From Nitrospirales bacterium (lineage in GTDB: Bacteria; Nitrospirota; Nitrospiria; Nitrospirales; UBA8639): a stretch of DNA of 44,288 nt. The notes below the pieces were generated by a model. The model was given only the letters and a program-made list of their open reading frames with translations. It had not been told where the DNA came from and made no database searches. Below, piece by piece: positions 8,794 through 44,288 of the stretch. Where the stretch lies: positions 1 to 44,288 of the forward strand of contig JAJDBR010000240.1 of assembly GCA_029261275.1 (NCBI GenBank). Reading direction: 5' to 3'. The position numbers were made by a program, and so were the translations under genes. Position 1 is the first letter of the stretch; every line of letters begins with the position of its first letter.

Positions 8794-9059
8794 GAGGTAG
8801 CTCCTCCTTCTTATAGCTATGGGCTATCATTCACAGATGGGACTTTGGTAAGACTTGGACACATGTGATGCGATTTTTGTCTCCTGGGAGGATATTCTAC
8901 AAATTGAACTCCATCAGGAAAAGGCTTTTCATCCCCTACAGCGCACGGCAACTAAAAACCATTTTCCAAAAATTTCCAACTTGGCGTGTAAGGGACGTAA
9001 GAACGACGTTGTATTTGAATTGCAAGCCTCCTCCCTTTGTAACTTTCATTGACTCAGGC

Positions 9060-25252: not shown

Positions 25253-25599
25253 TCGTGAAATGACTGGTTTGCAAAACATCGTTGCCAAAAGTATCCCTTT
25301 CAACGTCTTAAAGAGAAATACGCGATGTTTCAGATAATCCATCTGCAAGGACTAGTTATACCTGGAACAGATATTCCCTTATTGGCGGCAGGCAAGTGTA
25401 CCCGATTTTGAATTGTGGGCCAATAGTTATGAGAACTATTTGGGTGGTTTCACGCCTGCGGGGTTGAGGGCTGCTGAGTTGTGGGATAATAAATTATATT
25501 TCACCTGTTCTGCTGAGTTAGAATGACCCATATGGAGCAGTCTTTTCCTGAATGTTTTCTCCTGGAATCATGTTTATTCCTCAGCCATAAGATGTTTAG

Positions 25600-28646: not shown

Positions 28647-29882
28647 TTAGAATATCCAATTAGCATTGAGGGCAATAAAGAAAATTTCGTTGCGTCGAAA
28701 TTCTCCTTTCAGGGTTCGATCATTGTCGATCTTGGCATCGCCAGCATCGATGTATTCAAAGTTTCCTCCAAGCTTGAGACGTTCGCTCCATTGGTATTGG
28801 GCGCCAATCGCGTACCGAAGTTGCCGATCTACAGGCAGGTCAGCGGTCCGGTCCTTGTCGTCAACAGGAGAAGAATCATAGGCAAATCCCGTCATCAGGA
28901 GCCAGGGCTTTGAGGGTCGGTAATGAAAGCCGCCAGCAAGTTTATACGTGTCCTTCCAATGATTGGGGATCTGTCCTCCCCCTGCGGAAACAGAGATGGG
29001 GATGGTATCGAGTGAGCCACCCCAATCTTCCCAGTCAGCCGTCGCCAAGAAGGCGAATTGATCATTTATCTCATGGTAGAATCCTACTTCCACCATTTGT
29101 GGAAGTTCGATTTCCGTATCGGACCCGACGCTCAGTCCACCTAAGGCTCCGCCAGAAATTTCCAGATCTCCGTCAAATTCAAAGTTCGTCTTAGATTGAT
29201 ACCTCACCCCAAGTCGGCTACCTTCTGAAAATTCCACTAATGCCCCAACCGTAAAGCCGTAGGCCCAATCACTCCCATCGATTTGAACTGTTGACTCTGC
29301 CGGGTTGGGTGCCTTTAACTTCAATGGATCCAATTTCCCATAGGAAATTTGTAGCCCTGCCCCAAATGATAACCAGGGGCCGAGTTTGACGGCCAGACTT
29401 GGCATGCCCGTCAGGGTAAGCAGCTTTGACTCAGTGGCTTGTCGGCGTCCGGCCCATTTGCTGCCATAATCGAGGCCCGCTCCTGCCATGGAGCCAAGGG
29501 CAAAGCCAAGCTTCAGGTTGTCTGTCAGGCTATGCACGATAGAGGTGTTCGCGATCGGTGTTGCAAGGCCTGCTTGCCCCCCGTCCCCTCCAGCGACAGG
29601 AGTATTCGAATCAGCGTCAAATTTGATATTGGGAATAATCAGTCCGATGGTTCCCATGATTTGCGTGTCCGATATACGCGTCATCCCCGCCGGATTGTGC
29701 CACGCGGTCGAAGCATCGTTCGCGACCGCCACGGCGCCAGCATTGGCCACGCCCGTACTAGGAGTCCCAAACTCCGTAGTGTAGAGTCCGCCCGCTTGTG
29801 AAGGATGAGGCGAGAATACTAATCCCAATACGAAGAATACGGAGAAGGAACGAATACATTTTAAAGGGACCGTCGGTGGCAT
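28647..29882 (-). CDS. FadL/OmpP1-type outer-membrane hydrophobic-compound transporter
   Basis: 411 residues with signal peptide (FFVLGLVFSPHPSQAGG). The FadL N-terminal hatch is clear: GLYTTEFGTPSTGVANAGAV, then ANDASTAWHNPAGMTRI with the conserved Asn-Pro-Ala-Gly. The barrel shows GAGLQISYGKLD, GFTVGALVEFSEGSRLGVRY, LPQMVEVGFYHEI, WKDTYKLAGGFHYRPS and the last strand EIFFIALNANWIF with a C-terminal aromatic. The family passes long-chain fatty acids or aromatic hydrocarbons across the outer membrane. ATG 29882 has AAGGAT a few bases upstream. It lies between a predicted lipase-like gene and the sulfatase cluster; a role in uptake of lipids released by the hydrolase is possible but inferred. 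Confidence 0.93.
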   Translation of the reverse strand: MPPTVPLKCIRSFSVFFVLGLVFSPHPSQAGGLYTTEFGTPSTGVANAGAVAVANDASTAWHNPAGMTRISDTQIMGTIGLIIPNIKFDADSNTPVAGGDGGQAGLATPIANTSIVHSLTDNLKLGFALGSMAGAGLDYGSKWAGRRQATESKLLTLTGMPSLAVKLGPWLSFGAGLQISYGKLDPLKLKAPNPAESTVQIDGSDWAYGFTVGALVEFSEGSRLGVRYQSKTNFEFDGDLEISGGALGGLSVGSDTEIELPQMVEVGFYHEINDQFAFLATADWEDWGGSLDTIPISVSAGGGQIPNHWKDTYKLAGGFHYRPSKPWLLMTGFAYDSSPVDDKDRTADLPVDRQLRYAIGAQYQWSERLKLGGNFEYIDAGDAKIDNDRTLKGEFRRNEIFFIALNANWIF

Positions 29883-30164: not shown

Positions 30165-31205
30165 TCAAAACACCATGCGTACTCCAAACCACCCATTGAG
30201 ATTGCGCAGGCCATCTTCGAAGCTTTCCTTGCGGTGCGCACCCTGAAAACCCGCTGTCAATTCAACGGTATCGGTCAACTCGTAGACAAGACTAATATCC
30301 CCAGAGACTACGTCCTCGTGCTCGCCATTTCGCTCATCGTCGACAATGCCGGTCGTAAACCCGTTTCGTTCGTAATCAATCACCATCTCCAGGCTTAGTT
30401 CTTTCATTACATCAATGATGAGTTCTGCGGTGACAAAATGATTGAAGTAGGAGATATCATCTTTGAGCAATGCTTGTTTTCGGCCCTCTGCTAAACCTCG
30501 TTCATAGTGATACCCCAAAGCAAACTCCACCCGTTCGGTAACTTCCCACTCGAGATGTGTGCCAATGGTCCAAAAGTCGGTATCTCGCTGATCAAATGCG
30601 TCGGTGTATCGGCGAAGCCCGTAGCGTCCAAAAAGGATTGCGGTTACACCCTCATGAATCTGTTGCTCAATCCCACCGGCCCAAAAATGCGTGGTGACTT
30701 CCTCGTTTTTAAACTCTTCCTCGAGACTCACGACTGGTGTTCGTACTTCGTTTTTACCTAAAAAGAGATCGGGACCGTAGAAATAGCGGAATCCCACGGT
30801 TGCGGTTGGTGAGAGCTCCTGTCTGACTTGCACTCCAAGGCTTCCATGATTGAAACGGCCATTGTCCGCAAATAAGAAGCCTTGGCCGCGCACGCTAATC
30901 TCTGTTTGACTGCCTAGGGAACCGAAGGATTTCGTCACCTGCGCCGCGGGTTCATACACGACGTCATTGCCTTGCTCTGCTAGGGGTCGGTCGATGATAG
31001 GTTGGGTGGGATCCTGGTTCCGTGCTAATCGGCGTGTCGAGGAGAACAAGGCCACATCATCAGTGTAAAACAGGTAGCTTTCAGCCTGTACCGACCATTC
31101 TGCCGCACCGGGATAGGGAACGAACAGTTGTGGGGCCGTCAACAATAGGCTGTAACTGCACATCACGAATATCTTGCCCATGAAGCAGCGTTGGCTGTTT
31201 CTCAT
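30165..31205 (-). CDS. Outer-membrane beta-barrel protein at the end of the sulfatase operon
   Basis: About 346 residues from ATG 31205 (ATG 31181 is the alternative), with signal segment MGKIFVMCSYSLLLTAPQ. The mature protein begins EWSVQAESYLFYTDDV and alternates strands typical of a barrel: TEISVRGQGFLFADNGRF, TATVGFRYFYGPDLFLG, VTAILFGRYGLRRYTDAFDQ, EFALGYHYERG, and a final GWFGVRMVF ending in Phe. No family name can be assigned with confidence. A longer in-frame start at 31325 would overlap the HAD gene by 52 bases and bury the signal, so it is disfavoured. It may be the outer-membrane gate for the upstream sulfatase and HAD enzymes. Confidence 0.7.
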   Translation of the reverse strand: MRNSQRCFMGKIFVMCSYSLLLTAPQLFVPYPGAAEWSVQAESYLFYTDDVALFSSTRRLARNQDPTQPIIDRPLAEQGNDVVYEPAAQVTKSFGSLGSQTEISVRGQGFLFADNGRFNHGSLGVQVRQELSPTATVGFRYFYGPDLFLGKNEVRTPVVSLEEEFKNEEVTTHFWAGGIEQQIHEGVTAILFGRYGLRRYTDAFDQRDTDFWTIGTHLEWEVTERVEFALGYHYERGLAEGRKQALLKDDISYFNHFVTAELIIDVMKELSLEMVIDYERNGFTTGIVDDERNGEHEDVVSGDISLVYELTDTVELTAGFQGAHRKESFEDGLRNLNGWFGVRMVF

Positions 31206-31273
31206 GTATTCATCTGCAAGCGTTCCTGAATGTGTCTGATATGTTCCCGATGAAAGGACCCCTCTCCCTCGCA

Positions 31274-32275
31274 TTAAAACGGATAAATGACCTTCCAATC
31301 TTTTTTCATATCCACAATGGTCCAACCGCGCGCGGTTCCTTCATCAAGGGCCTTGTCCAACTGCCCAATTGTAGACTTTCGATCATAGGCCCATTCCCGA
31401 TCGGCGTCGGTATGACGAACAATGCCCATAAGCCTGGAACCTTTGCCGCCGGCCGTCCATTGTAGCATTTGAAGATCGCCATCGGAATTTCCAAAGGCGG
31501 CGATGGGACGCCGACCGATAAATTTGTGAATTGCCACAGGTTTTCCGGCCTTATCATCAATGAAATCAATTTCAGGGAGACGAACAATCACTGGTGTTCC
31601 ATTACGAATCTCAAATTTGGTCTTAATACTACTGCCGACAACCTGTTCCGGAGGAATTCCATAGACCTTCTCGACCCAAGGCCGCATAAATTCGATGCCT
31701 CCTCCGGAGACAATGTAAGTTTTAAAGCCATTGGCTCGAAGATAGTCAAGCAATTCCAGCATGGGTTGGTAGACAATATCGTTGTAGGGACGTTTGAAAC
31801 GGGGATGTTGCGAGGTCGCAAGCCAGTCTTTCACTATCTGCTCAAATTCTGCACTCGTCATGCCCGCATGCGAAGCCATGATAAGTTGGAGTAATCCCTT
31901 CTTGCCTGAACCGGCCAAGGCCGCTTTGTCGTTTTCTAGGACGGCCTTAAACGGCATCTGGGTTTTCCACTCTGGATGTTTTGGTGCCAGTTCTTTGATG
32001 CGATCAATTGCAAAGAGCAGTTGAAAGTAGACGGGTTGCTCAGACCACAAGGTACCATCGTTATCAAATGTGGCGATACGTTCTTCTGCAGGAACAAAGC
32101 TCGAAGAGGAGGAGGTTGTCACTTCCGTAACGAACTTGAGAATCTGCTGCTTGGTTTTTCCCTCATTCCAAGACGGCAATGGATCCTGCGCATAGACAGA
32201 GAATGCCGAGGCCACCAGGTAAAAACATGGAACCCCAATCCACCAAAACAATTGCTTCTGAAGTTTTCCGTTCAT
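31274..32275 (-). CDS. Secreted HAD-superfamily hydrolase (phosphatase-like)
   Basis: About 333 residues from ATG 32275, with AAGGAAAG close upstream. The signal peptide is WWIGVPCFYLVASAFSVYAQ. HAD motif I is ATFDNDGTLW (nucleophile Asp71, general acid Asp73), motif II is YIVSGGGIEF, and motif III is the GNSDGDLQM Asp pair, with a Lys in between. This is the phosphoserine-phosphatase-like type of HAD enzyme, here exported. It lies 60 bases downstream of a sulfatase stop and is probably in the same transcript. Its pairing with sulfatases suggests removal of phosphate from organic esters or a helper role; the substrate is unknown. Confidence 0.88.
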   Translation of the reverse strand: MNGKLQKQLFWWIGVPCFYLVASAFSVYAQDPLPSWNEGKTKQQILKFVTEVTTSSSSSFVPAEERIATFDNDGTLWSEQPVYFQLLFAIDRIKELAPKHPEWKTQMPFKAVLENDKAALAGSGKKGLLQLIMASHAGMTSAEFEQIVKDWLATSQHPRFKRPYNDIVYQPMLELLDYLRANGFKTYIVSGGGIEFMRPWVEKVYGIPPEQVVGSSIKTKFEIRNGTPVIVRLPEIDFIDDKAGKPVAIHKFIGRRPIAAFGNSDGDLQMLQWTAGGKGSRLMGIVRHTDADREWAYDRKSTIGQLDKALDEGTARGWTIVDMKKDWKVIYPF

Positions 32276-32334
32276 CGGTTCTTTCCTTTCATAGTTATCC
32301 AACTCTTCGAAGGTTAACCGTTTACCTCACACAT

Positions 32335-34722
32335 TCATTTGAGGGTGACTTCTACCTTCTCGATTTTTCCAGTGAATGGGAACGGTCGACGGTTGTCGTA
32401 TTCACGGGAGACGGGTGAACCGAGGTCGATGCCGACATCAAACGTCTCGCTTGCGGTGAAGGCCAGCGGCACCGTGCGTTTGGTCGTCACCTTGGCAACT
32501 TCCTTGCCGTCGACGCTCAACAGGATAGTGGCCGGGGCGGCAGGTTTGCTCAGAGTTGTGTCCACGGTGATCGTATGCTTGCCAGGCATGAGCCTTTCCT
32601 TTGATTTGGCGATGTAACGCTCAATGATCATCAGATTGTATTCGTAAATGAGGTAACCGTCGTCCATGTAACACGTCAGACCACCACTTGCTCCGCCAAG
32701 AGCATAGAGGGTTCCTGTGGCGCTCTCTCCAACCTCAAGATCGATGGTCACCGTATTACTTTTTTTGCCAAGACCAGGCGCGGTGAATTCGGGCATCCTA
32801 CGGGTATCCTGGTGGAAGGTCCAACTAGTGTAAGGCGAGGTATGAATATCCTTCGGATGAAGTCTCAACCAGTTACCGGCTCCAATCGGAAAGTCGTGAT
32901 TCTCCTTGGCCGCCTTCAGGAAGAGCGTCTTCATTTCATCGAGTTTCTCCAGGTTCTCTTTTGAGAGGTCGACGGCTTGGGAGAAATCCTGGCGTAAGTC
33001 ATAGAGCTGCCAGACATCTTTGGCTGAATCCCAATCTTTGTTGAAACCACCCTGGGTCGCATTCCAAGGCATGAACGGTCCGAACGCACTCGCGAACCAG
33101 CCTTCGTGATACACTCCGCGACTGCCGTTGTTGTCAAAAAATTGAGTCTTTTTTCGCCCCTCTGCCGCGCCGTCCGCAAAGGTGTAGGCCAGGCTCATCC
33201 CATCCATCGGTATTTGTTTGTGGCCATACACGATCTTCGGGTGAGGAATGCCAAGGATATCATAAAGGGTAGGCGCAATATCCACGACATGGTGAAATTG
33301 GTTGCGCATCGTCTTGTCTGGCCGGATCCCCTTCGGCCAGGACACCACCATCGGATTGCGGGTTCCGCCAAAGTGGGCCGCAACAAGCTTCGTACTCTTA
33401 AATGGTGTAGCCCCAGCCCAGGCCCAGCTTGCGTGGTACATGTTGTCCATCTTTGAGCCACCCAGTGCGTCGAGGCCACCGAGCGTTTCCATCGTCGTCA
33501 TTTGCTGCTCGATGGTGTTCGGAATTCCATTTTGAGCCAGCAATTCGCTGATCGAACCTTGCTGGCCTTCGGCGCTCGAACCGTTGTCGCCGACTATATA
33601 GAACACGATCGTGTTGTCTTTGAGTCCGCGTTGCTCGAGCCCTTCGATCATCTCACCAATCTGATGGTCGGTGTGTTCCATGAATCCTGCAAAGACCTCC
33701 ATCAATCTCCTCTGGAAGGCACGCTGCTCTTCGGGGATGCTGTCCCAGGAAGCCATCGACGGATCCCGCTCGGTGAGTATCGTGCTTTGCGGAATCACAC
33801 CCATATCGATTTGCCGCTGGTAAACGCGTTGGCGATAGGCGTCCCAGCCGTCATCGAACTTACCCTTGTATTTGTCCGCCCACTCCTTAAACACATGGTG
33901 CGGTCCGTGGACCGCGCCAGGCGCCCAGTACATGAGAAAAGGCTTGTCGGGTGCGAATGCCTGGTGCTGGTCAATCCAGGCTAAGGCTTTCTCCTTCATA
34001 TCCACAGTCAAATGATACGCTGGGTCGTCATGTGGCGGTTCCACCGTGTTGTAATTCTCATATAGACGCGGCTCGTATTGGGAGGTTTCGCCAGCCATGA
34101 ACCCGTAAAAATATTCAAACCCGTACCCATTTGGCCAACGATCCTTCGGACCCATCGCAGTGGTCTCGGTGGCAGGAGTGTTGTGCCACTTTCCAAAGGC
34201 CGATGTCTTGTACCCATACTCCTTTAGGACCTCAGCCATGGTCGCTGCCGTCTTGGGCATGATGCCTGTGAACCCATCGAAAGCCACCGCACGTTCGGCG
34301 ATCGTGCCCGAGCCGACCCGTGTGTGGTTGCGCCCGGTCAATAAGGCGGCACGAGTCGGTGAGCAAATTGACGTGGTGTGGAAGGCGTTATAGCGGATAC
34401 CTTCCGTCGCGAGCTTCGTGAGTGTTGGGGTGTGCACTTCACCTCCAAAAGTATCGGCGACACCGAATCCAACGTCATCGATTAAAATGATCAGGATGTT
34501 AGGTGCATCTTTCGGCAATCGAACAGCCTCTTTAGGCCATTTCATTGTGGAATCTTGCAGTCTCGCTCGTGCTGTGCTCTCCGATGGAGACGGGGGAAAT
34601 GGCAATACCGAGCCAGCGGCCACGTTCTCTGCCCATGCGGGTGCAAAGGTTCCCAACGCTAAGGTGAGGAGCATGGCGATGGCAATCTTGCAAATCGTCG
34701 TGAACCCATTTCTAGCCTTCAT
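32335..34722 (-). CDS. Periplasmic arylsulfatase (sulfatase S1 family), long form
   Basis: 795 residues, signal peptide cleaving near AWAEN, AGGAGG ribosome site. It hydrolyses sulfate esters using a formylglycine made from Cys120 in CSPTRAALLTGRNHTR (C-x-P-x-R). Metal ligands include Asp82-Asp83 (LIDDVGFG) and Asp-Asn in VGDNGSSAEG. HTDHQIGEMIE and AFGKWHNTP carry further active-site residues. The C-terminal 250 residues form an extra beta domain (SATGTLYALGGASGGLTCY, VGIDLGSPVSREYDNRRPF), shared with the next gene and typical of the roughly 780-residue arylsulfatases. It is highly similar to the 34764-37139 product in order and motifs, so the two are tandem paralogues, 41 bases apart. Confidence 0.95.
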   Translation of the reverse strand: MKARNGFTTICKIAIAMLLTLALGTFAPAWAENVAAGSVLPFPPSPSESTARARLQDSTMKWPKEAVRLPKDAPNILIILIDDVGFGVADTFGGEVHTPTLTKLATEGIRYNAFHTTSICSPTRAALLTGRNHTRVGSGTIAERAVAFDGFTGIMPKTAATMAEVLKEYGYKTSAFGKWHNTPATETTAMGPKDRWPNGYGFEYFYGFMAGETSQYEPRLYENYNTVEPPHDDPAYHLTVDMKEKALAWIDQHQAFAPDKPFLMYWAPGAVHGPHHVFKEWADKYKGKFDDGWDAYRQRVYQRQIDMGVIPQSTILTERDPSMASWDSIPEEQRAFQRRLMEVFAGFMEHTDHQIGEMIEGLEQRGLKDNTIVFYIVGDNGSSAEGQQGSISELLAQNGIPNTIEQQMTTMETLGGLDALGGSKMDNMYHASWAWAGATPFKSTKLVAAHFGGTRNPMVVSWPKGIRPDKTMRNQFHHVVDIAPTLYDILGIPHPKIVYGHKQIPMDGMSLAYTFADGAAEGRKKTQFFDNNGSRGVYHEGWFASAFGPFMPWNATQGGFNKDWDSAKDVWQLYDLRQDFSQAVDLSKENLEKLDEMKTLFLKAAKENHDFPIGAGNWLRLHPKDIHTSPYTSWTFHQDTRRMPEFTAPGLGKKSNTVTIDLEVGESATGTLYALGGASGGLTCYMDDGYLIYEYNLMIIERYIAKSKERLMPGKHTITVDTTLSKPAAPATILLSVDGKEVAKVTTKRTVPLAFTASETFDVGIDLGSPVSREYDNRRPFPFTGKIEKVEVTLK

Positions 34723-34763
34723 GTCATATTTCCTCCTGTTGGATCAGAACATCTGGCAAATTC

Positions 34764-37139
34764 CTATTTCTTGAGATACACGATCTTTGTCTGGCCAATC
34801 GTGCCGTTGAAGGCAAAGGGTGCTTGGTCGTAGTAGTCTAGTGACACGGGCGAATCCAGATCGGTTCCGATATCGAAGGTCGCGTTCGACGTGAAGTGGA
34901 GCGACATAGCGGCCGGGACATGGCCTTGGCCCACCACCTCCCCGTTCACCCGCAGTATGATGTCCATCGGCCCGCCGATCTTTTTAGTCAATGTGGATTC
35001 GACTTCAATTTTCACCTTACCGGTGGGTAATTTGCTTTTTGATCGAACCTTCGTTCGTTGGACCTCGAAGAGGTTGAACTCGTAGTTCAGGACCCCGTCC
35101 TTCAGGTAGCACGTGATGCCACCGGAAAATCCAGCAAGCGCATACAGCACCCCATTCGCCTTCGCCGGCACATCCACCTCCATTGTCACCAAGTTGCTGA
35201 CCTTCCCAAGTTTGGGTGCAGCCGATTCAGGCATGCCGGTAATGGGGGCATCAAAAGTCCATTCGGTAAAGGATGAGGCCGGGGCATCCTCCGGATGGTA
35301 CAGCACTGTGGACCACAGGCCACCGCCGATGGGCAGGTTTTTGTTCTTTGCCGATTCGGTGAGGAAGAGGGCTTTCATCTCCTCCAGTTTTTTCGGCTTC
35401 GTGGCTGCAAGATCATTCGCCTGGCTCCAGTCTTTATCAATGTGATAGAGCTGCCACGTATCCGTCAGAGGGGACCATTCCCTGATGCCAGGCGGGATGC
35501 CACCGACCCATGGCTCGCGCGGTCCACGAGCGCTGGCAAACCAGCCATTTTGATAGACGCCGCGGCTGGCCATGATGTCGAAAAACTGTGTCGTCTTCTG
35601 TCCCTTAGCTTTCGCATCGCCAAAGGTGTAGGCCATGCTGACGCCGTCGAAGGGATCCTGTTCCACACCGTTGACCACGCGTGGCGGCTGAATGCCGAGG
35701 AGTTCATACACGGTCGGCACAATGTCGTTGACGTGGTGGAACTGGGCGCGTGGCGTGGCATCAGGCTTAATGCGCGTAGGCCAGAATACGGCCATGGGCT
35801 GGCGAGTTCCACCGAAGTAGGCTCCCTGAAGCTTGGTGCCTTGATAGGGTGTGCTGCCCGCCCAGGCCCAGCCTGCGTGATACATGTTGTCAGTCTTCGG
35901 ACCCCCCAACACATCGAGGCCGCCGAGATCGGCCAACGCAGCGAGGTGTTGCGAAATCTTGGTTGGTATCCCATTCTGGGCAAGCTGTTCGCTGATGGTG
36001 CCATACAGGCCCTCGGATGACGAGCCGTTGTCACCCCAGATGTAGAAGATAAGCGTGTTGTCGAGTTTCCCTTGCTTCTCGATCTCGGCGATGACTCGGC
36101 CCGCATTATAGTCGACGTGTTCAGTAAAGCCAGCGAATACCTCCATCAGACGGCGCTGGAAGGGCCTTTCATCTTCCGGGATTGACTCCCAAGCATCCAT
36201 CGATGCGGCACGCGGCGTGAGCTGTGCGTCCTGGGGAATCCAACCTTTGGCTTTGGCGTTTGCAAAGACGCGCTCGCGATATTTGTCCCAGCCATCGTCG
36301 AACTTGCCCTTGTACTTGTCGGCCCATTCCTTCGGCACTTGGTGCGGTCCGTGGGAGGCGCCCGGAGCCCAATACATGAAGAAGGGTTTATCCGGTGCAT
36401 AGGCTTTCTGCTCGCGTAACCAATTGATCGCATCGTCGGAGATGTCTTCAGACAAATGATAGTAGTCATGGCCACCGGAAGTATGTGGTCTTTTTACATA
36501 GCTCGTGTTGCGCACCATAGTGGGTTCGTATTGGGAAGCCTCGCCAGCGAGGAAGCCATAGAAGTATTCAAAACCGTAACCAGTGGGCCAGTAGTCGAAC
36601 GGCCCCTTGGAGGTGATCTGTTCCTCTGGCGTATTGTGCCACTTGCCGAACGCGGAGGTGTTGTAGCCGTAATCTTTCAGCACTTCCGCCATGGTCGCTG
36701 AGGACTTCGGAATGATTCCGCTAAAGCCGTCGAAGTCGTTGGCGATCGCAGCAATTTGGCCATTGCCCACACGGGTGTGATTGCGCCCGGTGAGCAACGC
36801 GGCACGCGTGGGCGAACACATGGCGGTAGAGTGGAAGCGGTTGTAGGAAATACCGGCCCTGGCGATTCGGTCCAAGTTCGGTGTCTGGATCTCGCCACCG
36901 TACGTCGAGGGGGTTCCCGGTCCGACGTCGTCAATCAGAATGATGAGGATGTTCGGCGCGCCTTCGGTCAGACGCTTCGGTTCTACGCGTTTCTTGTAGG
37001 TGGAACCCTCGATCGTGACGCCCGCTTGCGAACCCGAGGGAACGGGCGGAAAGGGCAAAATTTCTTGAGCTACGATGTTTGGCGCAAAGAATCCTACCAG
37101 TAAAAGACTAATAGTAGGGATAAGCCTGTTTGGTTGCAT
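34764..37139 (-). CDS. Periplasmic arylsulfatase (sulfatase S1 family), long form, tandem paralogue
   Basis: 791 residues, signal peptide ending near NIVAQ. The formylglycine site is Cys108 in CSPTRAALLTGRNHTR; metal ligands are Asp70-Asp71 (LIDDVGPG) and the WGDNGSSSEG pair; AFGKWHNTP and HVDYNAGRVI complete the core. It has the same C-terminal extension as its neighbour (NGVLYALAGFSGGITCYLKDG, IGTDLDSPVSLDYYDQAPF). The two copies differ most in the loops after the GKWHNTP motif and near the C-terminus, which may tune substrate choice. The gene lies 137 bases downstream of the frameshifted sulfatase and 41 bases upstream of its paralogue. Confidence 0.95.
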   Translation of the reverse strand: MQPNRLIPTISLLLVGFFAPNIVAQEILPFPPVPSGSQAGVTIEGSTYKKRVEPKRLTEGAPNILIILIDDVGPGTPSTYGGEIQTPNLDRIARAGISYNRFHSTAMCSPTRAALLTGRNHTRVGNGQIAAIANDFDGFSGIIPKSSATMAEVLKDYGYNTSAFGKWHNTPEEQITSKGPFDYWPTGYGFEYFYGFLAGEASQYEPTMVRNTSYVKRPHTSGGHDYYHLSEDISDDAINWLREQKAYAPDKPFFMYWAPGASHGPHQVPKEWADKYKGKFDDGWDKYRERVFANAKAKGWIPQDAQLTPRAASMDAWESIPEDERPFQRRLMEVFAGFTEHVDYNAGRVIAEIEKQGKLDNTLIFYIWGDNGSSSEGLYGTISEQLAQNGIPTKISQHLAALADLGGLDVLGGPKTDNMYHAGWAWAGSTPYQGTKLQGAYFGGTRQPMAVFWPTRIKPDATPRAQFHHVNDIVPTVYELLGIQPPRVVNGVEQDPFDGVSMAYTFGDAKAKGQKTTQFFDIMASRGVYQNGWFASARGPREPWVGGIPPGIREWSPLTDTWQLYHIDKDWSQANDLAATKPKKLEEMKALFLTESAKNKNLPIGGGLWSTVLYHPEDAPASSFTEWTFDAPITGMPESAAPKLGKVSNLVTMEVDVPAKANGVLYALAGFSGGITCYLKDGVLNYEFNLFEVQRTKVRSKSKLPTGKVKIEVESTLTKKIGGPMDIILRVNGEVVGQGHVPAAMSLHFTSNATFDIGTDLDSPVSLDYYDQAPFAFNGTIGQTKIVYLKK

Positions 37140-37275
37140 GAAATTTTCCCCCTAGGGTTGAAATCAATTTACGAAAATGGCAATGGATCAAATACCTGTT
37201 CAAGAGTCTGCTCTTAATCCACATTCCTTTTCCACCACTTGGCAAAACCGGAAATATTTGTGAGTGAGTCGCAAC

Positions 37276-38717
37276 TTACCTAGATAGTATTGAGGGAACA
37301 TACGGGTCTGGTGTGCCCAGTTGGATAGGCGGTTCAACAACCAGTGACTTTTTGAAGGCCACCAGGCGTTTCAAGGCCACAGGCATGAACCAGGCATCAG
37401 CTATGTCCACTTTGTCTATGGGGTACAGCTCTTTCGGATCCTTGATGAGATTAAACATCATGGGCATGTTCAACCGTTGGGGCGCCTCGAACATCGAGTC
37501 AAGTTTTACGAAATGAATCTTATAGTCTCGCCATTTGTACGCAAATATATTATCGCCGTTGTAAATTGGAAAACCTTCGCGATTTGATTTCTCACTTTTG
37601 CCAAGAAAGAAATCGAGTTGATCCTTCCCGTCAATGATTCTGTCCTCAGGAACCTGGTACCCTGCGACTCTCGCGAAGGTCGGCAATAGGTCAGTGATGT
37701 GTACTATTTCGTTACTAACACGGCTTGGAGCGATCTTCCCAGGCCACCGGATGAGAAAAGACGTGCGCAATGAGCCTTCCAGAGCCGTGAAATAATTGCC
37801 GCGCCAGAATCCGGCCGTGCCTTGCCACCCTTCGATTTGTTCGGGTCCGTTGTCGCTAGTCCAGACCACGATCGTGTTGTTCGCAATCCCCAAATCCTTG
37901 ATCGCATCCAGGATCTGCCCTGCGCGATGATCTATCTCTTCGATCACGTCAGCATAATAGCCTTTGCCGGTACGACCTCCAAGTCCGGATGCGGAAGCGT
38001 GGGAAGATGTGGTTGAGTGAAAGGGACAAAGGTAAAGAAGGGTTTGCCAGCTGCAGTCTGGCGCCGTATAAAGTCGATGGTGCGCTTGGTGAGTTCACCG
38101 TCGATCAAGCGGCGCTCTTTCACCGTATATGGCTGTAGTTTCTTCACTTCTCTGCCTTTGCGTCCTTCCATGATATGCGTGACATGGGCAACGGTCGGGT
38201 CAAACTGATCACTCGTTGGGTAGAGCGATTCGTCCGTTGAGTTGGGGATCCCATACCACTCATCGAAGCCCTGGTCGGTCGGGAAGCGTCCAGGCGTGTC
38301 GCCCAGGTGCCATTTGCCGAACATTCCTGTGGCATAGCCTGCATCCGAGAATAGTTCTGGCATGGTCTTTTCCCATTGCGTCATGCCGTAGAGCATGCCC
38401 CACACGACTTTTGTTGTTCCCGAGCGAATCGGATGGCGTCCGGTCATGAACGCCGAACGGCTCGGTGTGCATTGCGGTTCGACATTAAAGTTCAGAAGCT
38501 TCAGACCTTCCTCTGCTAAGGCATCCAATCTTGGCGTACGAGCGCCACGAAGAATTCCTCCGCCATACGTGCCGATTTCACCCCATCCCAGGTTGTCGAC
38601 CATCATAATGATGACGTTGGGTTGCTCGGAAGCCAGGAGGACCGGCGATAGCCAAAGGTGCCCCGTCAGGATCATCAATAATATTATTAATAGAGGGGCT
38701 TTCCAAAAGAGTCTCAT
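37276..38717 (-). pseudogene. Sulfatase gene split by a one-base frameshift
   Basis: From ATG 38717 (AAAGGAA upstream) a signal peptide and sulfatase N-terminal half are read. It has VDNLGWGEIGTYGGG, formylglycine Cys83 in CTPSRSAFMTGRHP, and MFGKWHLGDTPG. It then ends in PHPDLEVVPAKAIMLT at 37944. Restoring one G in GAGGTCGTACC (about 37976) gives LEGRTGKGYYADVIEEID, which joins exactly to the second half from 37947 to 37276, containing VWTSDNGPEQIEG, FLIRWPGKI and HITDLLPTFARVAG. The intact protein would be about 479 residues. The position of the second metal-ligand Asp is Asn (Asp41-Asn42), unlike the other four sulfatases. Either an assembly error or a recent inactivation. Confidence 0.85.
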
Positions 38718-38734
38718 ATTTGATTATTCCTTTC

Positions 38735-38812
38735 TTAAAACCCCTTCCCTATAGTCAGGGTAAAAACTGTCCTTCAGGCCACGCTTCCGTCGTCTTGGCA
38801 AGATCCTGCATC
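38735..38812 (-). pseudogene. 3'-end relic of a MetA-pathway-type barrel gene
   Basis: Plus-strand bases from about 38735 match the end of the barrel gene at 41302: TTAAAACCC then TTCCCTAT and AAAAACTGTCCTTCA are shared, about 39 of 43 positions with one gap. On the minus strand the copy reads EGQF, then TLTIGKGF and stop after a one-base shift, the same C-terminus as the intact gene. The rest of the copy is gone. This indicates that a second barrel gene once preceded the split sulfatase. Confidence 0.65.
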
Positions 38813-38910
38813 GTGCTGGGTTATCCTTTATTTCAATAGTAGGTTTTGAGTTTCCTGACTAGACGCGGATGCCCTCAATGTATATTTTGCTGGAATGATT
38901 AACACGTTTC

Positions 38911-39258
38911 CTATCCGTGATAAAAATCTTCGCGAATAATTTTTCCGTCTTTCCATGTTTGTACGGTGGCCTGCTGCATGCTCACACGATTCCCGTCTTT
39001 AAACGTGATATCAAGTGACCATTCTATGGCCGCATGATCGCCATCGACTATCACTCTGCCAACTTGCGCACCATGAAATTCCTGAATGGAGCTGAGGAAT
39101 TGTATTTCGTATTCTCGATTCACCGCTTTTCCAACCCGTTCAGCTGTTTGGTTCTCGCTCATGACCACATCATCGGCATAATAGGTATCAAAGGTTTCTA
39201 AAAGTTTTCCTGCCAAAATTCCCTCGATAACTGCTTGAGCGTGGGCTTTGGTACTCAT
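38911..39258 (-). CDS. SnoaL/NTF2-like domain protein
   Basis: Cytoplasmic protein of 115 residues with no signal peptide. The fold pattern is that of the SnoaL-like/NTF2-like superfamily: an N-terminal helix (AQAVIEGILAGKLLETFDTYYADDVVMSE), then strands VGRVIVDGDHAAIEWSLDITFKDG and ATVQTWKDGKIIREDFYHG ending the cone-shaped sheet. The Tyr-Tyr-Ala-Asp and the final Glu-Asp-Phe-Tyr are usual. The ribosome site AAAGGAG lies about 8-10 bases before ATG 39258. These proteins act as small hydrolases, isomerases or binding proteins; the activity here is not predictable. It sits alone between two sulfatase genes. Confidence 0.85.
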   Translation of the reverse strand: MSTKAHAQAVIEGILAGKLLETFDTYYADDVVMSENQTAERVGKAVNREYEIQFLSSIQEFHGAQVGRVIVDGDHAAIEWSLDITFKDGNRVSMQQATVQTWKDGKIIREDFYHG

Positions 39259-39312
39259 CCTTCAATCTCCTTTCGATTCAGTCAATATTGAAAACGGATA
39301 GTGATCAATTTT

Positions 39313-39480
39313 CTAGTATTTCTCTCCCCCATGAGGGGCAAGAAAGTCATGAATGGGGCCAAGTGGCACCATCCCCATGGGATTGATGCCAGCTTGTGTG
39401 ATGTGAAGTCCCGTCGAGATCCAAGATCGTGGGCATGAGGTCCCACGCATATGGAAACCATGCTCCCAAGGTTTAGCCAT
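39313..39480 (-). other. Unrecognised 55-codon reading frame or gene remnant
   Basis: Between the SnoaL-like and sulfatase genes (39259-39557) the minus strand holds a short frame from ATG 39480 to TAG 39313-39315. Its translation looks protein-like: MAKPWEHGFHMRG, then GLHITQAGINPMGMVPLG and PIHDFLAPHGGEKY. No ribosome site is obvious and the frame is closed 10 codons upstream of the ATG, so it could be the tail of a decayed gene. I do not recognise the family. An overlapping longer frame (39282-39536) looks less protein-like. Confidence 0.3.
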
Positions 39481-39557
39481 TCCTGAGGCTGGTGGATGAT
39501 TTGAGAACTCTTCGTATCATTCAATCCCTGGCTCACGACTGTGCAGAAGATGTCAGC

Positions 39558-41234
39558 TTAAAACACAGGTGGTGATGGCAAAATGACGCCGGTTTCCTGC
39601 GAGTAGCCCTTCCAGATCTCGACCATTTCCGCATGAAGTTGAGGGTGGAGGGCGGACAGGTCATTCATTTCCCCGGGATCCTTGGCTAAATCGTAGAGCT
39701 GCCAATCGCCCGTGCCAAACGGCTTGGGGAGCCAGAGTAATTTGAAATCGCCCTTCCGGACCGCGCGCATCCCGAACAATTCCCAACTGACCGCGATGTC
39801 GTCTTTATGCACCACGTCGGCCGTTCCGTTGAGGACCGGCCACATCGACTTGCCACGAAGTGGTTCTATCGTGCGTCCCTTATACTCTGTACCGGGATGT
39901 GCTGTCTGTGATGCCTCCAGGATGGTGGCGGCGAGATCCATGACATGCGCAAACGCATCACTACGAGTGCCAGGCTTCTCCACGCTCGGCCCGCTCATGA
40001 TGAGTGGAGAGCGGATGCCTCCCTCAGCGACGAATAACTTGAACATACGAAACGGGGTCATGCTGGCTTGAGCCCAAGCAGGACCGGACGCGATTCGTGA
40101 ATATTGGCGTCCAAGGTTCCCAAAGCGGTTGTCAGAGTTTCTCTCAACCCAGGCTTCGTCGGTCTCGCCATACTGATGCATTTGCAGACCATTGGCCCCG
40201 TTGTCCGAGAAAAAGATCACCAGCGTGTTGTCCCACTGACCGGAATTCTTGAGGTGTGCGAAGAGTCTCCCCAGCTGATGGTCGACATACGCGATCATCG
40301 CCGCGTAGATCTCCATTCTTCTGGCGTCAATCTTCTTTTGTTCTGTGGTTAGCTCCTCCCAGGCCGGGACGACCTTGAGTCTTGGAAAGGGTTTCGCATC
40401 TGCTGCAACGAAGCCAAGTTTCTTCAGCTGTTCGAGACGAGTGTGACGGAGAGCGTCGTACCCCGCATCGTACGTTTCTTTATACCGGTCAATCCAGTCA
40501 TCCGGGGCATGGAGGGGATCGTGAGGAGCCGTAAACGAGAGATACCCGAAAAATGGCTGGGTGGCTGGGCGTTGGTCGAGATACTCAATGAGCTTGCTGG
40601 TATAGAATTCAGACGAATAGAATCCCTTGGGCACATGCACACGAACCCCGTTCTCGCGATAAATCGGGGTATAGTTAGCATACATCATCCATTCGTCATC
40701 GAAATGGCTGGCGCCACCGTTGAGCATGGTGTATACCTTCTGAAAACCGCGCCGAGAGGGGTCTTGTTCTGGCTCGTCACCAAGATGCCACTTCCCGGCC
40801 ATCGCGGTAAAATAGCCCGCATCTCCTAAGAGCGTGGCAATGCTCACCACTCGATCATTCAAATATCCCTCGTACCCGGGCTTGCCCTTCTGATTCGGTG
40901 TGATCGTTTCACCCATCGAGCCGACTCCAGCCAGATGGTTGTCTGTGCCGCTGAACAACATCGAGCGGGTGGGTGAGCAGGAGGCGGACGTGTGAAAGTC
41001 GGTAAACACCATACCGGACCTGGCCAAAGCGTCGAGATTCGGCGTGTCGATTTCACCGCCAAACGGGCCAATGTCGGAGTAGCCCATATCGTCAACTGCG
41101 ATGAGCAGAATGTTGGGTCGATGGTCTGCCTGTTCGGCACCTTCAGAGGGGTTTGTTACCAAAAAACTAAGGGCGATAAGAAGAAGCATTGTTGCCATAT
41201 GCGGCGTTGTCAAAGTACGGCATTTATTCCCCAA
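39558..41234 (-). CDS. Periplasmic arylsulfatase, mid-length form
   Basis: About 558 residues with signal sequence MATMLLLIALSFLVTNPS. The start could be TTG 41234 or ATG 41198; neither has a strong ribosome site. Formylglycine Cys86 in CSPTRSMLFSGTDNH (C-x-P-x-R), metal ligands Asp48-Asp49 (AVDDMGYSD) and FFSDNGANG, the active-site MAGKWHLGDEP, and YVDHQLGRLFAHL. It lacks the long C-terminal beta domain of the 32-37 kb pair and resembles classical AtsA-type arylsulfatases (ending with GDWQLYDLAKDPGEMNDLS). The barrel gene lies 67 bases upstream on the same strand, so the two are probably co-transcribed. Confidence 0.95.
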   Translation of the reverse strand: MGNKCRTLTTPHMATMLLLIALSFLVTNPSEGAEQADHRPNILLIAVDDMGYSDIGPFGGEIDTPNLDALARSGMVFTDFHTSASCSPTRSMLFSGTDNHLAGVGSMGETITPNQKGKPGYEGYLNDRVVSIATLLGDAGYFTAMAGKWHLGDEPEQDPSRRGFQKVYTMLNGGASHFDDEWMMYANYTPIYRENGVRVHVPKGFYSSEFYTSKLIEYLDQRPATQPFFGYLSFTAPHDPLHAPDDWIDRYKETYDAGYDALRHTRLEQLKKLGFVAADAKPFPRLKVVPAWEELTTEQKKIDARRMEIYAAMIAYVDHQLGRLFAHLKNSGQWDNTLVIFFSDNGANGLQMHQYGETDEAWVERNSDNRFGNLGRQYSRIASGPAWAQASMTPFRMFKLFVAEGGIRSPLIMSGPSVEKPGTRSDAFAHVMDLAATILEASQTAHPGTEYKGRTIEPLRGKSMWPVLNGTADVVHKDDIAVSWELFGMRAVRKGDFKLLWLPKPFGTGDWQLYDLAKDPGEMNDLSALHPQLHAEMVEIWKGYSQETGVILPSPPVF

Positions 41235-41301
41235 ATTTCCCGTCCCCCATTTGCTGGCCCTGGGCCAGTCTTTCAGCTCTAGATAATAAATTATGCCTTT
41301 A

Positions 41302-42333
41302 TTAAAACCCTTTCCCTATCGTCAAGGTGAAAAACTGTCCTTCAAAACGTGCTTCGGCACTAAATTCTTGTACTCCATGAAACACAATAAGTGCGTTCCA
41401 GGGAACATAGGTCAAGCCAATTTGACCCCCAGCCCCGTGAATCTGATCTTTGGGGTTAAACTGGGTATTCACGTCAGACCCGGAGTCTTTCTCTACCTGC
41501 CACTGAGAGTAGCCTAAGGCACCCACCTCCAATAAAAGTGAATTCGCCTTGTTGAGCGGGAGATATTGACTGATGCCCCAGTTGAGAGAAACTCGGTCGC
41601 CTGGCGTAATATTTACATCATCAATTTCAGAATGAATTTCATAGGTTCCTGCGAGCGTCACCGCGGTTCCCCGACTCTCCCATGGATACCAGGCCGTGGC
41701 TACTTGGAACTCATGCGTCCAAAACCCCAATCCAATATTATCCGCATCCCCATTGTCGTATTTGCCGACGGGCGCGTAAAAGCCATAGCCGGCTGCAACC
41801 GAATAATGCGTGCCATCCCATCCTAACCAAAATGGCTTGATGTATAAATCACCAACACCAAATTGAGACTCATCCACGTCAACCCCAAACCCCGTTTCCG
41901 TACGTAGAGACGCCTGAACTGAGGTGTTCGAAAATGAGGGAATAATTTGCGCCCCATATCGTGCGCCCAGAAACTTCCATGGGCTGACCCAAACCAAGGT
42001 GGGAGCAATAATAAATGCATCCACGTCTGCTTCCACTTCCAGCGTTGCGGGGCCTGCGTTGATGGAGTTTACCTTGTCGCCATGTCTGTCTTTGAAGGTG
42101 TCAGTGTGGTACGACACAAAATATTGCAGGAAATACAATCCTGGATCTGGAACGACTAAGTCGCGAATATTGGGGACTGCTGGGGCGAAATGCCCTAATT
42201 GACCTGCCTGGGTAGGCCCGAGGCCACCCAACAGAAGACAAAGTGTCCCCAGAAGTATTCTCGGCCCTTTCTTTAAAGAAAGGGTGTGAGTCAGTGGAAA
42301 AACTTCGATTAACCCTTGATAGGTGCACCACAT
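41302..42333 (-). CDS. MetA-pathway-of-phenol-degradation-type outer-membrane barrel
   Basis: About 343 residues from ATG 42333 with an AGAGG ribosome site; signal sequence RILLGTLCLLLGGLGPTQA. The mature start AGQLGHFAPAVPNIRDLVV followed by DPGLYFLQYFVSYHTDTF is characteristic of this channel family, as are VGDLYIKPFWLGWDG, YGFYAPVGKYDNGDADN, FQVATAWYPWESRGTAVTL and the last strands QIGLTYVPWNALIVFHG and FFTLTIGKGF. These porins pass aromatic or other hydrophobic molecules. Located directly upstream of a sulfatase gene, it is a candidate entry route for the sulfated substrate (inference). A 3' relic of a related gene lies at about 38735. Confidence 0.88.
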   Translation of the reverse strand: MWCTYQGLIEVFPLTHTLSLKKGPRILLGTLCLLLGGLGPTQAGQLGHFAPAVPNIRDLVVPDPGLYFLQYFVSYHTDTFKDRHGDKVNSINAGPATLEVEADVDAFIIAPTLVWVSPWKFLGARYGAQIIPSFSNTSVQASLRTETGFGVDVDESQFGVGDLYIKPFWLGWDGTHYSVAAGYGFYAPVGKYDNGDADNIGLGFWTHEFQVATAWYPWESRGTAVTLAGTYEIHSEIDDVNITPGDRVSLNWGISQYLPLNKANSLLLEVGALGYSQWQVEKDSGSDVNTQFNPKDQIHGAGGQIGLTYVPWNALIVFHGVQEFSAEARFEGQFFTLTIGKGF

Positions 42334-42483
42334 GATAGCCTCTTGTTTAAAGGAAATTCGCCTTATTGATTCGAGGAACTGGCTAATCCCAAACTAAGAA
42401 ATGCCTATGCTGCCCGTTGACAATACGATTGAGGCTTTGTGTCCACGGGATAGATTGCTCAAAAAAAGTTCACAACGGTCACT

Positions 42484-42532
42484 TTTTAAAAAAAAAGGCT
42501 GCACCCAGTCTTATGCTGAGTACAGCCTTTTT
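42484..42532 (-). terminator. Strong intrinsic terminator after the 42554-44122 sulfatase
   Basis: Ten-base arms AAAAAGGCTG (42492-42501) and CAGCCTTTTT (42523-42532), with a loop that can form an inner helix. Read on the minus strand it ends in nine Ts (42488-42496), 22 bases after the sulfatase stop. It separates that gene from the barrel/sulfatase pair downstream. Confidence 0.85.
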
Positions 42533-42553
42533 GAAAGGACGCAATTCCTGATA

Positions 42554-44122
42554 TTAGTGCCCCCCACCTCCTGTCTGAAGTCTTTCCATGACATCATCCA
42601 GGCTAAAGCTGGCGGCTTTTTGACGAGGCGGAAATTCCTTAAAGGTTGCCAGGAATTTTCCGACATAGGCTTGGGCCGGAACAAGCATAAAGGCATGATC
42701 CAGGAGCCAATCATAATAGGTATTCGACGTAATTTGTCCTCGCTCATAGGGATCGCGACGCAAATTAAAAATTAAGGGAACTCGCAATGGCGTAAACGGG
42801 TTGGCCCAAATTTCAAATGTCGCTTCAACTCGTTGTTGTAAAAAAATCAACTTCCAATCGTTGTAACGCAACGCACTCAAATCTCCGTCGTCGGTAAAGT
42901 AGAAGATTTCATTTCGACGTCCGTTTTTTTCCTTCCCCGTTAGATGGGGGAGGAAATTATATCCATCTAAATGCACCTTGAAGGTTTTGTTCCCGGCCTT
43001 ATGACCCTTCTTTAATTTTGCCTTGATATCCGCATCTCCGGCGATGGCGGCAAAGGTCGGCAACCAATCCATGTGGTGCATAATCTCATTGGACACTGAG
43101 CCTGGTTGAATGTGGCCGGGCCACCGAACCATGGCAGGCACCCGCATGGCGCCTTCCCAGTTGGTATTCTTTTCACCACGAAATGGCGTCATCGCCGCAT
43201 CCGGCCAGGTGTTCATGTGTGGACCATTATCAGTGGAATAAAAGACAATGGTGTTGTCCGCAATTCCAAGGTCATCCAGTTTTTTCAGCAGTTTTCCAAC
43301 ATGCATGTCATGTTCGACCATGCCGTCACTATATTCGTCTTGTCCGGAAATCCCTCTCAGTTCAGGCTTTACATGGGTACGGAAATGCATGCGGGTGCCA
43401 TTCCACCAAACAAAGAATGGCTTTTTGGCTTTGTGTTGCCGATCAATGAAGTCCAAGGCCGCATCGGATGTTTCATCGTCGACCGTCTCCATCCGTTTCT
43501 TGGTTAACGGTCCCGTATCTTGAATTTTTCCATCAGCATGGGAATGAATGACACCACGAGGGCCGAATTTTTTGTGGAAGTTGGGATGTTTCTTTGGGTC
43601 CGGATAGTCGGGAAGCTCCGGTTCTTCCTCGGCATTGAGATGGTAGAGATTGCCGAAGAATTCGTCGAATCCATGATTCGTGGGCAGATGTTCATCCTTA
43701 TCGCCAAGATGATTTTTACCAAATTGCCCTGTGGCGTAGCCCATGGGCTTCAAGACTTCCGCAATGGTGGGATCTTCTCCTTTCAGGCCGAGCTCTGCAC
43801 CAGGTAGTCCAACTTTGCTCAGCCCGGTACGAAATACACTTTGGCCCGTGATAAATGACGAGCGGCCTGCCGTGCAGGATTGTTCCGCGTAATAATCGGT
43901 AAAAATCATCCCTTCATTGGCCACCCTATCGATATTGGGCGTTCGGTACCCCATGAGTCCTTTGGTGTAGGCGCTGATATTAGATTGACCAACATCATCA
44001 CCCCAGATGACCAGAATGTTGGGTTGGTCTTTCGCTTGTGCTGGTGCCAGGCCCAAACACCATATGAGGGCGAAGATTAAGCTAGCAAAAGGCCATGAAT
44101 TTCTAGAGGGGGTTTTTTTCAT
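42554..44122 (-). CDS. Periplasmic sulfatase with C-x-A-x-R formylglycine motif
   Basis: 522 residues from ATG 44122, with AGAGGAA upstream and a signal peptide (FASLIFALIWCLGLAPAQA). The catalytic Cys83 lies in SCTAGRSSFITGQ, i.e. C-x-A-x-R rather than the C-x-P-x-R of the other four sulfatases. Metal ligands Asp42-Asp43 (GDDVGQSN) and FYSTDNGPHMNTW, plus QFGKNHLGDKDEH, in which Asn replaces the usual Trp of GKWH. Further on are VRWPGHIQPG and HHMDWLPTFAAIAG. The C-terminal part contains PLIFNLRRDPYERGQ. A terminator follows, and the partial gene upstream ends 36 bases away. Substrate unknown. Confidence 0.93.
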   Translation of the reverse strand: MKKTPSRNSWPFASLIFALIWCLGLAPAQAKDQPNILVIWGDDVGQSNISAYTKGLMGYRTPNIDRVANEGMIFTDYYAEQSCTAGRSSFITGQSVFRTGLSKVGLPGAELGLKGEDPTIAEVLKPMGYATGQFGKNHLGDKDEHLPTNHGFDEFFGNLYHLNAEEEPELPDYPDPKKHPNFHKKFGPRGVIHSHADGKIQDTGPLTKKRMETVDDETSDAALDFIDRQHKAKKPFFVWWNGTRMHFRTHVKPELRGISGQDEYSDGMVEHDMHVGKLLKKLDDLGIADNTIVFYSTDNGPHMNTWPDAAMTPFRGEKNTNWEGAMRVPAMVRWPGHIQPGSVSNEIMHHMDWLPTFAAIAGDADIKAKLKKGHKAGNKTFKVHLDGYNFLPHLTGKEKNGRRNEIFYFTDDGDLSALRYNDWKLIFLQQRVEATFEIWANPFTPLRVPLIFNLRRDPYERGQITSNTYYDWLLDHAFMLVPAQAYVGKFLATFKEFPPRQKAASFSLDDVMERLQTGGGGH

Positions 44123-44158
44123 GAGAATTCCTCTTATTCAAATAATTAAAAAAAATGT

Positions 44159-44287
44159 CTAATACATCAAAGGAATATTTGCGGCTAAGTCATATTTAAT
44201 CAAGGCGCGAATTTTGCTTTCCATTTGCAAATAGCGGGCAACCTTGGGGGCTGGCAGAATTTTCGTGAGTTTTTCGGCATACTCCCT
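44159..44287 (-). CDS. C-terminal end of an unidentified gene, cut by window edge
   Basis: The last 42 codons of a minus-strand gene run in from the right edge to TAG 44159-44161. They read KLTKILPAPKVARYLQMESK, then IRALIKYDLAANIPLMY. This ending (a Leu-Pro...Lys-Val-Ala-Arg helix followed by Asp-Leu-Ala...Ile-Pro-Leu) resembles the tail of small helical periplasmic proteins I have seen without a clear name. It lies 36 bases upstream of the CTAGR-type sulfatase gene and is probably in the same operon. Confidence 0.65.
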   Translation of the reverse strand, partial: REYAEKLTKILPAPKVARYLQMESKIRALIKYDLAANIPLMY

Positions 44288-44288
44288 T

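Follow-up and report, generated by a model that had tools for sequence, protein, structure and literature searches.

A sulfatase-rich locus in a Nitrospirales bacterium and its conserved pairing of a sulfatase with a putative HAD phosphatase

Clustered sulfatase genes accompanied by genes for outer-membrane proteins are found in polysaccharide utilisation loci (PULs). The same combination occurs in a locus of about 14 kb on the minus strand of contig JAJDBR010000240.1 (44,288 nucleotides, nt; hereafter the window), which is an entire contig of the 3.8-Mb Nitrospirota draft assembly GCA_029261275.1 of a Nitrospirales bacterium (283 contigs, 90% complete). The locus holds genes for sulfatases, here named SulA to SulE, for a HAD (haloacid dehalogenase) protein and for outer-membrane barrels, one of them named MetA. 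It differs from PULs in that neither SusC/SusD nor a glycoside hydrolase or lyase was found among the 31 window open reading frames (ORFs) scanned with Pfam, the rest of the genome not having been searched for them; the preliminary description of this DNA, which had set apart from PULs a sulfatase locus with outer-membrane barrels of its own, is borne out in this respect. As to single enzymes, the solved relatives are PAS (AtsA) of Pseudomonas aeruginosa (1hdh), classed as an arylsulfatase of SulfAtlas family S1_4 in a passage of PMC5066984, and PsFucS1 (7AJ0), a fucoidan-oligosaccharide sulfatase of family S1_13 according to a passage of PMC8484680, where PAS is said to act on small substrates. 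The solved relative of the HAD protein, 4OVY from Planctomyces limnophilus, belongs to the same protein family, and its title names a haloacid dehalogenase domain hydrolase without a function.

I show here that a SulE-type sulfatase gene and the HAD gene form a conserved core, the gene order of the locus as a whole not being conserved, and it is mainly this partnership that is unusual in an otherwise ordinary locus. The HAD loci compared are the best 80 of 341 matches and not a random sample; in 58 of them a match to SulE, defined by 30% or more identity over 150 amino acids (aa), lies within 3 kb of HAD on the same strand, 53 times upstream and five times downstream. Where at least 3 kb of sequence precedes HAD (59 loci), 46 loci carry the match upstream, and in the 32 loci with full flanks the midpoints of the SulE matches fall 26 times in the 2.5 kb before HAD, seven times in the next bin and 0-2 times in each other bin. 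The remaining 22 of the 80 loci have no near SulE match, many of them having short flanks. Judging by record titles, the pairs occur in at least seven phyla, the taxa being Planctomycetota, Krumholzibacteriota, Bacteroidota, Pseudomonadota, Acidobacteriota, a Desulfobacteraceae metagenome-assembled genome (MAG) and Hydrogenedentes. Fifteen plasmid neighbourhoods were also picked by hand, and HAD adjoins SulE in three of the six that had been picked by SulE. A few literature searches, confined to open-licence papers, returned no description of a sulfatase-HAD unit.

Further genes accompany the pair in some lineages. Ten of the 80 loci have a gene for a formylglycine-generating enzyme (FGE) no farther than 5 kb from HAD, and three more have one 5-10 kb away. 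A case in point is Bradyrhizobium, where three loci (L115, L136, L138) read FGE-SulE(-SulE)-HAD-PF13557 barrel, all on one strand; a PF13557 barrel is present on the opposite strand in two further loci, and a plasmid of Methylobacterium nodulans reads PF13557-FGE-SulE-HAD. Likewise, in Roseobacter litoralis a PF13557 gene directly precedes a SulA-type sulfatase gene (64.5% identical), and in Nostoc sulfur-assimilation genes are found near a SulA-type gene. Given the recurrences in Rhizobiales, Methylobacterium and Roseobacter, neither the barrel-sulfatase link nor the sulfatase-HAD link is private to this strain. Among neighbouring ORFs (136 of 150 selected ones aligned), TPR proteins and multihaem cytochromes are the most frequent families, counted eight and six times, and PF13557 was counted three times. 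On plasmids of Alloyangia (L179) and Azospirillum (L045), HAD is followed by genes for a MoxR ATPase, DUF58, DUF4381 and VWA proteins; a multihaem cytochrome is present in Alloyangia too.

Within a set of 117 related genomes, which includes the window's own, HAD, SulE, SulA-like, SulD, MetA and the BBP2 barrel were scanned for, with thresholds that differ between genes. HAD is present in 17 genomes, SulE in 22, SulA-like in 17, SulD in two (E 1e-80), the BBP2 barrel in 56, and MetA in five, all of one genus. SulE and HAD occur together in 15 genomes, HAD alone in two, SulE alone in seven and neither in 93 (Fisher 6e-12, with kin genomes treated as independent and unequal thresholds for the two genes). 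The nearest named relative is a Nitrospirota MAG whose HAD (L065) is 83% identical. In the nearest relative of the window's genome (G001), a fragmented assembly, SulE, MetA, SulA, HAD and BBP2 are 78-86% identical to the window's copies; a single contig carries MetA directly before SulA, and a different one carries HAD and BBP2. No SulD match was found there at E 1e-80, nor a second SulA-like match above 42% identity (SulB itself was not searched). For this reason SulB and SulD, perhaps also SulC and SnoaL, seem either to have been added in this strain or to have survived locally. The conservation of gene order that the preliminary description had proposed to look for is thus found in part: the whole order is not kept, SulD and MetA being as rare as just stated, whereas sulfatase and HAD stay together across phyla, and sulfatase, HAD and PF13557 barrel recur in Rhizobiales. 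Its "long sulfatase pair", listed in the gene set to be looked for, is a pair of paralogues, SulA and SulB, and lies outside the conserved core.

A larger island is seen in relatives, made up of genes for DUF4410, a PPIC-type prolyl isomerase, a HupE/UreJ permease, DUF3604, FGE and a SulA-type sulfatase (loci L050/L153 in G018, L055/L151 in G013, L162 in G017, L157 in G106 and L063 on contig C148 of G000). SulE follows the SulA-type gene in G013, G017 and G018, with HAD next in G013 and G018. The window's genome holds a piece of this island with four DUF3604 genes on another contig; a search of the PDB with DUF3604 gave no relative at E 0.1, and the paper found for this domain deals with a different topic.

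The SulE type has the residues of a sulfatase. Residue and structure tests used 43 of 49 listed sulfatase ORFs plus the window's own; in the resulting alignment of 44 sequences the DD and DN motifs, R87, H246 and K318 are kept in 44/44, K136/H138 in 43/44 (one gap) and the cysteine in 43/44. PMH enzymes differ from sulfatases at the DN metal pair, and SulE as a phosphonate or phosphodiester hydrolase was set aside as the leading reading in view of the sulfatase DN pair in all 44 sequences. No solved structure was found closer to SulE than PsFucS1 (7aj0, E 9.7e-57; E 4e-90 in a profile search), a protein of the same length class; SulE differs from it in its motif CTAGR, in that its type adjoins a HAD gene, and in the lack of any glycoside hydrolase among the scanned window ORFs.

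As for the HAD protein, it matches PF12710 above the Pfam cut-off and stays below that of the NCBIfam HAD-SF-IB model (30.7 bits vs 45). The motifs DxD, S/T, K and D have catalytic roles in HAD enzymes; the corresponding D80, D82, S199, K254 and D274 are invariant in 53/53 sequences (52 of 65 listed HAD ORFs plus the window's own), so that the complete phosphatase set of DxD, S/T, K and an acidic motif IV is present. By sequence (E 2e-130) and by model (TM 0.86, model pLDDT 86.6) the protein is a relative of 4OVY; the next matches of the model are the uncharacterised 4gxt, phosphoserine phosphatases, a 5'-nucleotidase and a class B acid phosphatase. With SerB phosphoserine phosphatase and AphA class B acid phosphatase it shares the DxD, S/T, K and D motifs; it is larger than they are, and TM values are below 0.6 and identities 11-22% (matches with E up to 0.001). 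In view of these structural matches and invariant phosphatase-type residues, the best guess is that HAD is a phosphatase; dehalogenation is unlikely, for the DxD motif speaks against it. Phosphorylcholine phosphatase was considered as a relative and set aside, the match reaching only E 0.18.

The genes of the locus and its possible extension, in the order of transcription, are the following (signal peptides were judged by eye, without a predictor).

42554..44122, minus strand: SulE, formylglycine (FGly) sulfatase, 522 aa, motif CTAGR, signal peptide, PF00884
41302..42333, minus strand: MetA, outer-membrane barrel, PF13557 (E 1.5e-31)
39558..41234, minus strand: SulD, S1 sulfatase, 558 aa, motif CSPTR, kin to SulA/SulB, PF00884
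38911..39258, minus strand: SnoaL-like protein (Pfam)
38735..38776, minus strand: 3'-terminal relic of a second gene of the MetA barrel type, directly ahead of SulC (local alignment)
37276..38717, minus strand: SulC, SulE-like sulfatase, motif CTPSR, frameshifted (ORFs 37944-38717 and 37276-37947), PF00884
34764..37139, minus strand: SulB, sulfatase, 791 aa, motif CSPTR, PF00884
32335..34722, minus strand: SulA, sulfatase, 795 aa, motif CSPTR, C-terminal part mostly beta in a low-confidence model, PF00884
31274..32302, minus strand: HAD phosphatase-like protein, signal peptide, full DxD/S/K/D set, PF12710
30165..31181, minus strand (ORF 30165-31325): BBP2/EpsL-like outer-membrane barrel, BBP2_2 match below cut-off
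28647..29882, minus strand: FadL/TodX-type barrel, possible extension of the locus (Pfam, E 2.1e-66)
26612..28477, minus strand: alpha/beta hydrolase of PGAP1-like type, putatively a lipase or esterase; the locus may extend to it (Pfam)

Pfam and alignment confirm the gene content first described, namely a one-strand, sulfatase-rich run with HAD, two barrels, SnoaL and a barrel relic. The run continues on the same strand beyond the BBP2-type barrel with the FadL barrel and the PGAP1-like hydrolase; at its other side the contig ends at 44288, only 166 nt upstream of the SulE start codon (44122). Intergenic spacing is -52 to 299 nt on ORF coordinates, the value of -52 stemming from the over-long ORF of the BBP2 barrel, whose start is probably the ATG at 31181 rather than a TTG inside HAD. 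Pattern scans gave no clear signal either for promoters (20 promoter-like sites vs 14.8 +/- 3.2 in shuffles) or for terminators (13 terminator-like sites vs 16.9 +/- 4.1), so that a single operon is possible and not demonstrated. Six of the 11 PF00884 matches of the whole assembly fall in this locus (in five genes), which is beyond chance. GC content is 54-56% in SulA, SulB and SulD vs 48-49% in SulE, MetA and HAD, a difference that fits acquisition of the former without proving it. Elsewhere in the window, 24209-25348 (minus strand) encodes PF02931 ligand-binding and PF02932 membrane domains, and is thus a bacterial homologue of pentameric ligand-gated (Cys-loop) channels; MscS-type mechanosensitive channels are encoded at 6974-8428 and 20711-22441 (both minus strand) and also in the sulfatase islands of relatives.

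All five sulfatase genes match PF00884 and carry an FGly motif of the class I form C-x-P/A-x-R. Those of SulA, SulB and SulD are accompanied by DD, GKWH and DNG motifs; in SulC, GKWH and DNG lie on its two pieces and VDN replaces the DD pattern. A frameshift at about 37961-37991 divides SulC, and consequently of the five sulfatases first counted only four have intact ORFs. Nor do the "four architectures" hold as such, for sequence similarity gives two lineages, SulA/SulB/SulD and SulE/SulC: SulA and SulB are tandem paralogues (55% identical), SulD shares 28-29% identity with each of them, and SulC and SulE are each other's closest among the window sulfatases. For SulA, Pseudomonas arylsulfatase is the closest in a sequence search of the PDB (1hdh, E 7e-51, mutant forms scoring slightly better); a structure search with the SulA model has 7all on top and PAS close behind. 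SulA keeps the CxPxR motif of PAS; SulA and SulB (about 790 aa) differ from PAS in having an additional C-terminal part, and the structural alignment of SulA with PAS shows about 25% identity. Given the mean pLDDT of 67.9 of the SulA model, this mostly beta part is left without a fold assignment; a laminin-G match of SulA is below threshold (E 0.21), and SulB has none.

The barrel relic is genuine, though tiny: its 42 nt (38735-38776) align to the 3' end of MetA (41302-41344) with one gap and three mismatches, and the local score is 64, none of 300 mononucleotide shuffles scoring above 26. In the best explanation, relic and SulC would be a second, decayed barrel-sulfatase unit. The other barrel match is weak (BBP2_2/EpsL-like, 23.2 bits, under the cut-off of 23.7). 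An attempt to support MetA as an aromatic transporter through a PDB relative failed, the best match reaching only E 0.77. FadL barrels handle hydrophobic solutes; beyond the window, five sulfatase loci of Nitrospirales contain one, and in two other lineages one adjoins HAD, with one further weak match (L137). The window also encodes two OprB porins (PF04966), one at 8865-10406 and one at 19221-20555. The SnoaL-like protein has no homologue among the fetched loci at E 1e-4 besides the window itself.

With moderate confidence, the locus is read as a periplasmic ester-hydrolysis locus of non-PUL type, in which further sulfatases have joined a conserved SulE-HAD core. The core would be made up of an FGly sulfatase of SulE type and a HAD phosphatase that is exported, sometimes joined by FGE and a PF13557 barrel; SulA, SulB, SulD and the decayed unit of relic and SulC would have been added to it in the present lineage. 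Organic molecules carrying sulfate, and some carrying phosphate, would enter through the barrels. In the periplasm the sulfatases and HAD would free sulfate and phosphate, and these anions and/or the carbon skeleton left after ester hydrolysis would then be taken up. Gene content, catalytic residues and the conserved neighbourhood are observed, and from them I infer export (by eye), the substrate, transport through the barrels, co-transcription, and the action of SulE and HAD on the same molecule. As for substrates, sulfated glycans or lipids are possible; the FadL neighbours would suit hydrophobic or lipid-like esters just as well as aromatic ones, and the kinship to PsFucS1 would suit glycans. 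The aromatic nature first suggested as a possibility is backed by the PF13557 family name and the kinship to PAS only, and the nearest solved relatives act on small substrates (PAS) and fucoidan oligosaccharides (PsFucS1). A bolder version, rather unlikely, is that SulE and HAD form a dedicated two-step pathway which unrelated phyla share and which has moved between them; it would serve a single unrecognised class of compounds, either lipid-like or bearing both sulfate and phosphate, and the window would show it as an enlarged multi-sulfatase array with entry barrels. A phosphate-starvation reading, set aside, had scattered hints only: in 4/80 loci a neighbour cluster contains what was named by eye a phosphate-ABC-type ATPase, and a Na/Pi symporter lies near a SulE gene.

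Several observations weigh against an ester-hydrolysis locus built on such a core. The distance matrices of SulE and HAD are weakly correlated (Mantel r 0.18, 53 pairs; a value as high arises in 25 of 2000 permutations), which implies that partners are often reshuffled and leaves strict co-evolution unsupported. Only seven of the 15 two-gene genomes keep SulE and HAD within 3.5 kb; in three, the window's included, they are 7.8-17.2 kb apart, in two SulE lies beside a broken HAD copy only, and in three they are on separate contigs or far apart. Here the distance is 10 kb, with MetA, SulD, SnoaL, SulC, SulB and SulA in between. PF13557 is found in only 5/80 HAD loci and 2/15 plasmid regions, the profile used having been derived from six sequences, among them three of these loci and the two plasmids. 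SulC is broken in the window, and in G001 the 86% identical SulA homologue has two TGA codons near the 5' end of the match, the SulE match also containing stop codons. Four relatives have HAD copies that are partial or contain stops (L036 in G001, L039 in G003, L041 in G015 and L037 in G110); as the damaged copy adjoins an open SulE gene in G003 and G015, these sequences suggest repeated loss of the HAD partner. Maturation adds to these points: no CxxxxCxRY-type catalytic cysteine pair was seen in the FGE regions scanned in the window's genome, and no anaerobic maturase (anSME) was found above cut-off in nine genomes, this one included.

The last points lead to the idea that the locus is decaying or unmatured here, its sulfatases, for lack of FGE, keeping an unmodified cysteine and being largely inactive. 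The genome has 13 FGE-domain matches (one chance match to the cysteine pattern in the scan, in a stop-filled frame of L063, is not an FGE), and a search with a catalytic FGE query gave only these weaker relatives, whereas the cysteine pair is present, by eye, in 10/10 island FGEs of relatives; the SulC frameshift and the broken HAD copies of relatives point the same way. However, the assembly is 90% complete and in 283 contigs, the FGE-domain match on C168 is cut by a contig end before the motif, that on C209 has no recognised domain end, and the window's contig stops just before SulE, so a catalytic FGE gene may lie in an assembly gap; moreover, the active-site motifs that were searched for are kept in HAD and in four of the sulfatases. 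Decay is regarded as improbable, sulfatase activity in this genome being only predicted as long as no catalytic FGE is seen. To about the same degree improbable is a loose pile of paralogous sulfatases, brought together by local duplication and acquisition and lacking a joint function. The tandem paralogues SulA and SulB, the decayed barrel-sulfatase copy, the GC difference, the rarity of SulD and MetA in relatives and the broken SulC would all agree with it; the SulE-HAD neighbourhood in 58/80 loci and at least seven phyla, as well as barrel and sulfatase arrangements seen again in another phylum, would not.

Rather doubtful, though the least so of these alternatives, is a locus serving sulfated poly- or oligosaccharides, that is glycan desulfation, and not small aromatic or amphiphilic esters. 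It would agree with the nearest solved relative of SulE being a fucoidan-oligosaccharide sulfatase, with the top match of the SulA model, 7all, coming, by its title, from a study of gut mucin-glycan sulfatases (PAS following closely), with the mostly beta C-terminal part of SulA and its sub-threshold laminin-G match, and with the two OprB porins. Against it stand the lack of any glycoside hydrolase, lyase or SusC/SusD among the scanned ORFs, the PF13557, BBP2 and FadL types of the barrels that adjoin the sulfatases, FadL neighbouring the loci of relatives too, and the classing of PAS as an arylsulfatase (PMC5066984).

To sum up, the conserved SulE-HAD core, enlarged here by extra sulfatases, bears on enzymes of both families and on the organism. 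The start of the abstract of a paper on the cultivation of marine Nitrospirales (PMC10579370) does not contain the word sulfatase. The nitrite-oxidation profile TIGR03478 has no match in the window's genome, and of 12 genomes 10 have matches below the cut-off and none above, which hints at a gap or an absence here. The substrates of sulfatases are hard to assign; a sulfatase type whose HAD neighbour is constant across at least seven phyla offers a handle on the HAD family, whose solved structure 4OVY is titled by its domain only. The partnership with SulE also gives a simple prediction, namely a shared substrate or a shared nutrient response. If the reading as an ester-hydrolysis locus is true, relatives of nitrite oxidisers would process organic sulfate esters.

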